A stretch of DNA of 64,000 nt from contig APJY01000002.1 of NCBI GenBank assembly GCA_000389735.1, forward strand, positions 310,001-374,000. The letters run 5' to 3'. The notes below the pieces were generated by a model. That model was not told the DNA's origin and made no database searches. It saw nothing but the letters and a program-made list of their open reading frames with translations. The number at the start of each line of letters is the position of its first letter. Position 1 is the first letter of the stretch. The position numbers and the translations under genes were made by a program. This stretch comes from Sulfolobales archaeon Acd1 (GTDB lineage Archaea; Thermoproteota; Thermoprotei_A; Sulfolobales; Sulfolobaceae). Of the stretch, positions 876 through 2,640 are shown piece by piece.

Positions 876-1502
876 ATGCCGAAAATCCCAGTTAGGGTCG
901 TGAGTTGGCAGGAAATAGTCGACTGGAGCTACGGGCTGGCGGAAAGGATCATCGATAGCGGTTACAGGGTCGACGTGATAATCGCCATAGCCAGGGGAGG
1001 CCTCGTCCCCTCGAGGATACTGGCCGACAGGCTCGGTGTGGTAGACGTGATATCCCTAAAGGTAGAGCACTGGGTACAGACGGCCTCCAGGAACCCAGAA
1101 GCCAGGATAAAGTATCCTTACTCGGTCGACCTATCGGGGAAGAACGTCTTAATAGTCGACGATATCGCTGACACCGGTGACAGCCTAATCCTGGCGAAGG
1201 ACTACGCTAAGAGGAACTTCAACCCCAAGGAGATCAGGACGGCCACCCTCCAAGTAATCACCCAGACAACGAAGTACGTGCCCGACTACTATTATTTGGA
1301 GGTGAAAGATTGGGCCTGGTTCATGTATCCGTGGAACTACTGGGAGGACGTGATAAACCTAGTGAAGAAGTTGAAGGACAGTGGAGTCAACATCAAGAAC
1401 TTGGAAGAGCTGAAAAGGGCTTACGTGGACAGCTACGGCTCTCACCCTCCGATCGACCTGAATATCATAATTGATGAGATGAAAAGGAGAGGGGAGTTCT
1501 AA
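876..1502 (+). CDS. Purine phosphoribosyltransferase (gpT-1/APRT-like)
   Basis: Type I phosphoribosyltransferase of 208 residues that transfers a purine base to PRPP. The PRPP-binding signature [13 protein letters not shown] is at residues 91-103, and an [12 protein letters not shown] loop at 39-50. The Trp/Tyr-rich C-terminal segment ([12 protein letters not shown]) matches archaeal 6-oxopurine-type PRTases. In Sulfolobus solfataricus a protein of this group was shown to act on adenine although it looks like a 6-oxopurine enzyme, and I recall it is encoded beside MTA phosphorylase as here; adenine salvage is therefore the best guess, xanthine/guanine the alternative. A TATA-like AT stretch at 828-845 precedes a short leader. 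Its 3' end overlaps the convergent aRF1 gene by 4 nt. Confidence 0.85.
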
Positions 1503-2609
1503 CTTATCTTAAACCTTAACTTTCCTATGGCACCTCCGAAGGTCTTCTTCACCCACTCTGCCTCGGGGACTTCGTCCCCCACGAGGAACACCTTGGTTCC
1601 GAACTTCTCAGCTTCCTGGGCTAAACTCTCCAGCTTCGGGTCCCCGTCGTCGTAAACTATTAGAGAGTCCACGGCTCCCATTTCAATGGCCCTCTTGATT
1701 TCCTCCAGGCCATAAACTACCAGACCGTCGTCCTTGGCCAAGTGGAACTTGATCTCCTCGATGAGCTTGCTTACCTCTATGTACTTATGGTTCTTTAATA
1801 CGTCCTCGGCCTTAAGCACCATCTCCCTGAGCCCCGCCTCACCTTGATAGGCCACGTCTATCAGAGGCGTTAACACCAGCTTCTTTAGCCTGTAGTCCAT
1901 GTAGTCCCCGTCGACGAAGTCCTTCTTGGCGTAGCCTGGGCCTCCCACAAGGACGCCCTTCAGCTTGCCAGTCTCAACGTAGGGGAGCAAGAGGGTGTTG
2001 GCCGCTTCGCCTACCTCCTTCAGGAAGTTCTCGTACATTTCCTCTATGATCCTGTCAATACGTCTCTGGCTCTGTCCTCCCATCATGTGCTTGCCAGGAA
2101 CGAAGCCTTCCAATTCTTCCAACACTTCTATCCTGGATCCCCTGAGGATGCCCACCGTCGCCTGATCTCTCTCCACTATTATCAGGCCGTAAACGTCGCT
2201 CTCCTCCACCATGTCCTCGAGGAACTCGGTGTGGAAGTACTTGTCAGTCCTATAGAAGAACAGCGTTACCTTTTCAGGAGGGGAGAACATGTAACACTTG
2301 AAGTCGTTCGTCTCGAAGTTCTCGCCGCAGAACAGCACCAGCCCTTTGTCAGGGATCTTAGGCACTTGGATCAGTCTGTCTATCGCTCCCGAGATCGCCG
2401 CGGTTACGGCATCCCTAGTTCTCTTCAGCTTAATGTTTTGAGCTATCGACGCCTCCTGTCTCAGCAGGTTGACTACATCGCTCACCGGCCTACCTGGAGG
2501 TATATACAGCGATAGTAGGACAGTCGCGGGGGCCGACCACTTCTTAAGTTCCCTTAAGAGAACCTTCAGCTCCTGCCTCGTCAGCTCGTATTTATTGCTA
2601 AAGACTCAT
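1499..2609 (-). CDS. prf1: Peptide chain release factor aRF1, apparent +1 frameshift at codon 3-4
   Basis: Class I release factor reading all three stop codons, eRF1 family. The frame open from 1499 shows domain 1 with NIK (NIKL, not NIKS), the GGQSQRR peptidyl-hydrolysis motif, and the C-terminal domain. The first in-frame NTG other than CTG is GTG at 2487-2485, but clear aRF1 homology continues upstream ([20 protein letters not shown]) to about 2597, where no ATG/GTG/TTG exists before an in-frame TGA. An ATG at 2609-2607, placed 26 nt after the TATA-like TTTAATAA (2632-2639), is in another frame: ATG AGT CTT TAG C. A +1 slip CTT to TTT joins both frames and yields 369 residues, starting MSLSNKYEL, the usual aRF1 length. 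In that numbering NIKL begins at residue 58 and GGQ is at 177-179. Could also be a real or sequencing indel; the gene identity is certain. Confidence 0.9.
2597..2603 (-). promoter_or_regulatory. Candidate +1 programmed frameshift site CTT TAG C in aRF1
   Basis: On the minus strand the bases 2603-2597 read CTT TAG C in the frame set by the ATG at 2609. The heptamer has the same form as the bacterial prfB site CTT TGA C: a Leu CUU codon able to re-pair on UUU one base downstream, a stop codon of the encoded factor, and a following C, which makes a weak stop context. Reading onward in the shifted frame gives AGC AAT AAA TAC GAG, the start of the conserved aRF1 N-terminus. No upstream Shine-Dalgarno-like stimulator can exist because the predicted mRNA is leaderless and the site is at codon 3. 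Inference only. Confidence 0.6.
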
Positions 2610-2630
2610 CGATCGTAAAGTTATCCCTGG

Positions 2631-2640
2631 CTTATTAAAC
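2631..2640 (-). promoter_or_regulatory. TATA box of the aRF1 gene
   Basis: GTTTAATAAG on the minus strand is a good archaeal TATA element. Its centre (about 2635) is 26 nt upstream of the ATG at 2609, the distance at which Sulfolobus transcription normally starts, so the mRNA should begin at or within a base or two of this ATG. This is why the out-of-frame ATG is taken as the true start rather than the internal GTG at 2487. Confidence 0.6.

Follow-up and report, generated by a model that had tools for sequence, protein, structure and literature searches.

The aRF1 locus

The window—the whole stretch of 64,000 nucleotides analysed here, from Sulfolobales archaeon Acd1—carries on its minus strand the gene of the archaeal release factor aRF1. 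The encoded protein is of the aRF1/eRF1 type, with a match to PF03463 (the eRF1 N domain) and the motif GGQSQRR; the 26 PDB sequences that match it with E <= 1e-10 are all named aRF1, eRF1 or Pelota, and the closest solved structure, the aRF1 of PDB 3agk, aligns over query residues 6-368. Identity to aRF1s of the same family is 64-78%. This is the only aRF1 found in the window's genome: two proteins there match PF03463, and the second (L001), which we take to be aPelota, was rejected as a paralogue on that ground.

Read along the minus strand, the start of the gene is TTTAATAAGCCAGGGATAACTTTACGATCG ATG AGT CTT TAG C AATAAATAC, the features of which are collected in Table 1. Beyond a TGA at 2608-2606, the aRF1 frame runs uninterrupted for 368 codons (2605 to 1502) and, as an earlier sequence-only reading of this DNA had claimed, offers no start between that TGA and a GTG far downstream; the GTG itself, which that reading had put at 2487, occupies 2485-2483. 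It would be residue 42 of the shifted product, and initiation there would presumably cost the protein its helix 1 and first strand. Because the alignment with PDB 3agk begins at query residue 6, the residues before this GTG are part of the conserved N domain. The out-of-frame position of the leader ATG is confirmed, and the minus-strand read-out agrees with the proposal that a +1 slip within ATG AGT CTT TAG C would join the upstream ATG to the aRF1 frame: with AGC 2599-2597 read after CTT, the product would have 3 + 366 = 369 residues.

The motif by itself was rejected as evidence, since the bare pattern ATGNNNNTTTRR occurs twice in the window against 4.14 occurrences expected by chance. What lifts the layout beyond chance is that its register is conserved at the start of one gene in 31/31 Sulfolobaceae.

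Table 1. Features at the start of the aRF1 gene in the window
Feature	Positions	Strand	Basis or remark
TATA-like box TTTAATA	2633..2639	-	centre to ATG, 27 nt
ATG opening a leader of three codons, in another frame than aRF1	2607..2609	-	ATG in 31/31 Sulfolobaceae
TGA in the aRF1 frame, overlapping the leader ATG and blocking in-frame starts upstream	2606..2608	-	overlap in 31/31 Sulfolobaceae
AGT, leader codon 2	2604..2606	-	sequence
CTT, shift-prone codon; its tRNA could pair with TTT following a +1 slip	2601..2603	-	CTT in 31/31 Sulfolobaceae; NTT in other families
TAG, leader-frame stop, followed by C 2597	2598..2600	-	stop in 31/31 Sulfolobaceae
Main aRF1 frame, predicted to be entered by a +1 slip and read from AGC 2599-2597; stop 1501-1499	1499..2599	-	same-family identity, PDB 3agk alignment
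GTG, earliest ATG/GTG/TTG in the aRF1 frame	2483..2485	-	unlikely start: too far inside

Conservation within the Sulfolobaceae

The aRF1 gene was matched in 60/60 genomes searched, and in all 31 Sulfolobaceae genomes (family f1, the window's included) it begins with ATG AGT CTT and a stop codon. The leader stop and its following base are TGA C in 19 genomes, TGA T in seven, TGA G in two and TGA A in one, leaving TAG C in the window and TAG T in G001. The alignment of relatives called for by the sequence-only reading thus bears out the conserved arrangement but makes TAG the minority form, with TGA in 29/31. The upstream sequences of M. yellowstonensis, Ca. Aramenus and a Sulfolobaceae MAG are those of G018, G013 and G001, respectively, which places the window in the Sulfolobaceae. 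One locus, L032 (G016), has a TGA inside the aRF1 match; the assembly is fragmented and an error is possible.

An indel, which had been raised as an alternative at the outset, could have come from sequencing or assembly; like gene decay, it was conceivable from the window alone. Both are ruled out by the identical layout in 31/31 species genomes, many of them single-contig, and the remainder of the window's aRF1 gene is intact; the probability left to them is negligible. Nor did any sister genome supply the missing start: in the range where one would be needed, 12-30 codons before the conserved LxxLxxW, 0/31 Sulfolobaceae have a start codon in frame. Among the 30 full genes (G006, with a partial sequence only, was left out of this comparison), the first in-frame ATG, GTG or TTG is scattered from -4 to +30 codons relative to LxxLxxW, so no alternative start is conserved.

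This scatter bears on the idea that the leader serves as a regulatory mini-ORF, with aRF1 arising by re-initiation further downstream at an in-frame codon. In its favour, 16/30 genes have as their first in-frame start a TTG, placed -4 or +3 codons relative to LxxLxxW; yet the in-frame start is not conserved, and in the other 14/30, the window included, it lies at least 12 codons past the start of LxxLxxW, which would delete helix 1. Re-initiation is therefore very unlikely.

Nucleotide-level selection at the putative shift site

Eleven bases, G ATG AGT CTT T at positions -1 to +9, are invariant in 31/31 Sulfolobaceae, and positions -8 to -2 (GATYAGG) are nearly so except at -5, with the window deviating. 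Across the 30 full genes, 138 residue columns are invariant, and in only four of them is the codon fixed as well: the GTC and the TTT, both overlapping the slip site, and two Trp, an amino acid with one codon only. By comparison, each of the 17 invariant Leu columns uses at least five codons and each of the three invariant Ser columns at least four, so constraint on the protein does not account for the invariant AGT and CTT.

The stop is likewise retained while the residue read after the putative slip changes: in the 31 Sulfolobaceae it is D in 26, E in three and S in two, with the leader stop kept throughout. Outside the family it is Ser at 56/57 sites, always encoded by AGY and never by TCN; it is the AGY codon that forms the leader stop TAG. 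Retention of the stop also argues against transcriptional slippage that drops one T. A T run overlaps the site (three in f1, up to six in f10), but runs of three are too short for known cases of transcriptional slippage, and a stop kept while neighbouring bases change would be needless for it, which makes this explanation exceedingly unlikely.

Upstream elements and RNA structure

The 16S rRNA 3′ end, which reads GGATCACCTCA in three genomes, is complementary to short Shine-Dalgarno (SD)-like elements that begin at -10 of the slip codon: AGG in 28/31 f1, 17/26 f10 and 12/14 f3, f4 and f11 genomes, and GGTG in 15/17 genomes of f2, f5 and f13. The gap between element and slip codon is 7-8 nt; a short spacing of the kind seen in prfB was looked for and not found, the element occurring at this other spacing instead. 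In the window's genome there is no AGG or GGTG element (ATCG precedes the ATG). In the Sulfolobaceae a single nucleotide separates the AGG from the ATG, a distance too short for it to serve that ATG, and it may act as an internal SD; across the families, the AGG or GGTG element may have a role in frameshifting.

The best-scoring TATA-like box is centred 33-38 nt before the ATG in 27/31 Sulfolobaceae. The TATA box noted in the sequence-only reading stands as the TATA-like TTTAATA at 2639-2633, although its centre lies 27 rather than 26 nt from the ATG. A control stretch scores equally high in 37/88 cases, which makes single boxes weak evidence; taken at face value, these positions predict transcripts with roughly 8 nt of leader or no leader at all, and the window's aRF1 transcript may be leaderless. 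Downstream of the site, the 60 nt that follow fold no better than shuffled sequences (mean z -0.07 for the 50 of 88 sites folded, with 2/50 below z -2), and a stimulatory RNA structure was rejected on this basis.

Distribution across the order

To follow the arrangement further, we parsed 136 genomes—the 31 Sulfolobaceae plus 104 further members of their order and a single class-mate—and scored the layout as NTT followed by a stop in the +1 register, with a start codon within six codons. It was found in 86/136 genomes, a wider spread than the sequence-only reading had supposed. The layout is present in 31/31 f1, 10/16 f2, 10/10 f3, 3/3 f4, 4/4 f5, 26/26 f10 and 1/3 f11 genomes and in the single f13 genome, which belongs to the same class but stands outside the order; it is absent from f6 (0/27), f7 (0/3) and f8 (0/7). 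One GTT TAA motif match in f9 (G038; 1/5) was dropped from the count, as an in-frame ATG lies upstream. The remaining six f2 genomes comprise two with TAT TAG, a poor slip codon, three with an in-frame GTG and G114 with neither. With about 50/136 genomes lacking it, the layout is dispensable.

The 86 genomes use just six combinations of codon and stop: CTT TGA (29), ATT TAG (26), TTT TAG (18), CTT TAG (10), GTT TAG (2) and ATT TAA (1). In the -1 register, 49 scattered combinations were seen, none above five and without a favoured codon. Outside the Sulfolobaceae, 55/105 parsed genomes have ATT, TTT, CTT or GTT as slip codon (G038 uncounted), and the stop is mostly TAG, which the window's genome and G001 share, whereas TGA prevails in the Sulfolobaceae.

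In the families without the layout, ordinary starts mostly take its place: an in-frame start lies 12-30 codons upstream of LxxLxxW in 27/27 f6, 3/3 f7, 6/7 f8 and 5/5 f9 genomes. Conversely, 67/86 layout genomes have no such start. The other 19/86 (5/10 in f3, 1/4 in f5, 11/26 in f10, 1/1 in f11 and 1/1 in f13) have both, so the frameshift case is weaker there and these genomes alone prove little. One f8 locus, L227 (G047), on a single contig, has no ATG, GTG or TTG in the aRF1 frame until a TTG within helix 1 is reached; a possible leader is a frame that opens with GTG and closes with GGT TGA C.

The comparison between families also bears on non-canonical initiation in the aRF1 frame itself, e.g. 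at GTC, TTT or ATA, which would render the leader ATG irrelevant. Rare non-AUG starts exist, and in f2 and f5 the SD-like GGTG lies about 8 nt before ATTTAG, the usual distance for initiation. The exact start in these two families is doubtful, because the supposed GTG mostly falls inside the GGTG motif, and G114 (f2; L129, L272) retains GGTGA and ATTTAG, but its leader frame contains no start codon and its aRF1 frame has none within range. Against this, the in-frame codon before TTT differs by family (GTC, GTA, GTT, GCA, CTA, GCC), whereas what persists across families is the start outside the aRF1 frame, followed by NTT and a stop, and in f10 the leader start interchanges between ATG and GTG at one place. 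We consider a non-canonical start unlikely.

In a tree of 35 aRF1s, of which 10/32 inner branches are open and which carries a long-branch warning, the rows with the +1 layout are spread across the order with ordinary-start rows in between, and f11 holds both states. A single clade of all +1 rows was rejected by the AU test (p 5.8e-05), as is expected if the ordinary-start rows lost the layout. An old trait with several losses is the simplest reading; separate gains would also be compatible. Within f11, three loci (L229, L042 and L044; G050, G059) have an in-frame TTG TCG CTC AGC where a relative, G040, has ATG AGT GTT TAG C, an arrangement that may represent loss of the frameshift.

In the rest of the phylum, sampled with 40 of 200 genomes, in-frame starts were found in 37/40 (seven of them f23), the remaining three being f31. 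Four class-mates outside the order (L143-L146, read separately) also have in-frame starts; they come from 15 such genomes, of which seven with matches (G060, G063, G065, G067, G069, G070, G072) and three without a match were left out. G149 gave no aRF1 match. In another class, L147 (G278) combines an in-frame ATG with an ATT TGA located in the +1 register; its congener L148 is without the ATT TGA.

A proposed autoregulatory +1 frameshift

Taken together, aRF1 in the Sulfolobaceae and several related families very probably uses programmed +1 frameshifting at the very start of its gene, with the slip expected when aRF1 is scarce. Ribosomes would initiate at the leader ATG and translate a codon or a few more until an NTT codon (CTT here) occupies the P site and a stop (TAG here) the A site. 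With abundant aRF1, termination would release a tiny peptide, MSL; with little aRF1, the ribosome would pause, the peptidyl-tRNA on NTT would move forward by one base onto TTT, and the 366-residue aRF1 frame would then be translated. Codon positions 2 and 3 would remain U after this slip, which would explain the preference for NTT. Since aRF1 reads all three stop codons, any stop can act as the sensor, in line with the exchange between TGA, TAG and TAA.

The programmed frameshift put forward by the sequence-only reading is well supported by the comparative evidence, and is probably autoregulatory. What the sequences establish is the layout, the missing in-frame starts, the constraint at the nucleotide level and the retained stop; the slip is inferred from these, and its dependence on the aRF1 level by analogy with prfB. 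If true, archaeal cellular genes gain a +1 programmed frameshift, and the site offers a ready-made assay of termination efficiency in Sulfolobus. It would also mean that aRF1 is possibly annotated too short in genomes with the layout.

A second archaeal order and a GGQ variant

In f31, which belongs to the order of G254, the aRF1 frame likewise lacks a consistent in-frame start. Here, a leader frame of 2, 5 or 6 codons, [ATG/GTG]...GAA TAA, stands in the -1 register relative to aRF1. The sequence G_GAA_TAA, from which the aRF1 frame would be entered one base back, is present in 16/16 loci examined (L187, L189-L193, L199, L201, L205, L206, L208, L212-L215, L167), in a sample of 16/25 genomes and with a search that required GAA before the stop; L188 (f53) was unparsed. 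The f31 arrangement is an apparent -1 (or +2) counterpart of the proposed Sulfolobales +1 shift. Several f31 loci also hold an in-frame GTG or TTG at other places, and AUA initiation is an alternative to the -1 shift. In f23, the sister family of f31, an in-frame ATG or GTG lies at a near-constant position.

A separate observation concerns the GGQ motif of f2 aRF1, which reads GGW (TGG codon) in 18/19 loci with the motif parsed (L250-L254, L256-L258, L260, L266-L274; the analysis covered 21/30 f2 loci). L249 and L255 have GWSQRR, and G347 (L245) keeps GGQ. No second aRF1 match at E <= 1e-30 was seen in the GGW genomes, and no paper on the variant was found among the matches listed.

Comparison with known frameshifting systems

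The sequence-only reading had held that aRF1 frameshifting is not known to be described in archaea, and no such description was found among the matches listed, coverage of which left out preprints and most subscription papers; the excerpts available of PMC5009743, PMC8211752, PMC12421855, PMC10516650, PMC10653856 and PMC2613156 do not mention it. According to excerpts of a 2021 review, the sole archaeal -1 case counted as reported is the alpha-L-fucosidase gene fucA1 of S. solfataricus, magnesium chelatase and aIF1 are possible further cases of archaeal frameshifting, and an archaeal +1 shift is given for a virus only (PMC8211752). Like aRF1, fucA1 is a Sulfolobaceae gene with programmed frameshifting, but its shift is in the -1 direction on an A-AAA-AAT heptamer, without a stop-codon sensor, and it does not encode a release factor. 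The virus is the haloarchaeal myovirus HSTV-2, for which excerpts of two papers give a predicted +1 shift by archaeal ribosomes (PMC5009743, PMC8211752), in a viral gene rather than one for a release factor.

The closest parallel is bacterial prfB, encoding RF2, whose autoregulatory +1 shift has the consensus CTT_TGA_C or, more broadly, YTT_TRA_C in excerpts of a genome scan (PMC3711429). By the same excerpts, prfB genes shifting less than 50 nt from the start escaped that scan, so the aRF1 shift would be hidden from a search of this type. As in prfB, the Sulfolobales aRF1 gene has an early stop that would be read by the very factor that it encodes, and the proposed shift is in the +1 direction; the motif CTT TGA C is identical in 19/31 Sulfolobaceae. 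Throughout that family the gene continues in the +1 frame, and in-frame starts are missing from the range in question (0/31). An SD-like element is found upstream in most genomes with the layout, and the layout occurs in many relatives and is missing in others, again as in prfB. The YTT directly before the early stop corresponds to the CTT of Sulfolobaceae, whereas the ATT and GTT used elsewhere are not YTT.

Other features set the two apart. The aRF1 slip codon is codon 3 to 6, and its SD-like element, absent in the window's genome, lies 7-8 nt away as opposed to the 3 nt that separate element and slip codon in prfB. The aRF1 leader ends in TAG, TGA or TAA, while in excerpts of a prfB survey the stop is TGA in >99% and otherwise TAA (PMC12421855), and aRF1 is not homologous to the bacterial class-1 factors (excerpts of PMC2613156). 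The aRF1 shift would operate in the manner of prfB without belonging to the prfB type.

On this view, it is reasonably likely that release-factor genes gained stop-sensing frameshift autoregulation several times—in bacterial prfB (+1), in the aRF1 of Sulfolobales (+1, NTT and any stop) and in that of a second archaeal order (-1, G_GAA_TAA)—and that the Sulfolobales case is an old, order-wide homeostatic circuit and the first case of programmed +1 frameshifting in a cellular gene from archaea. If true, the textbook feedback circuit of prfB would have evolved convergently in a non-homologous release factor.
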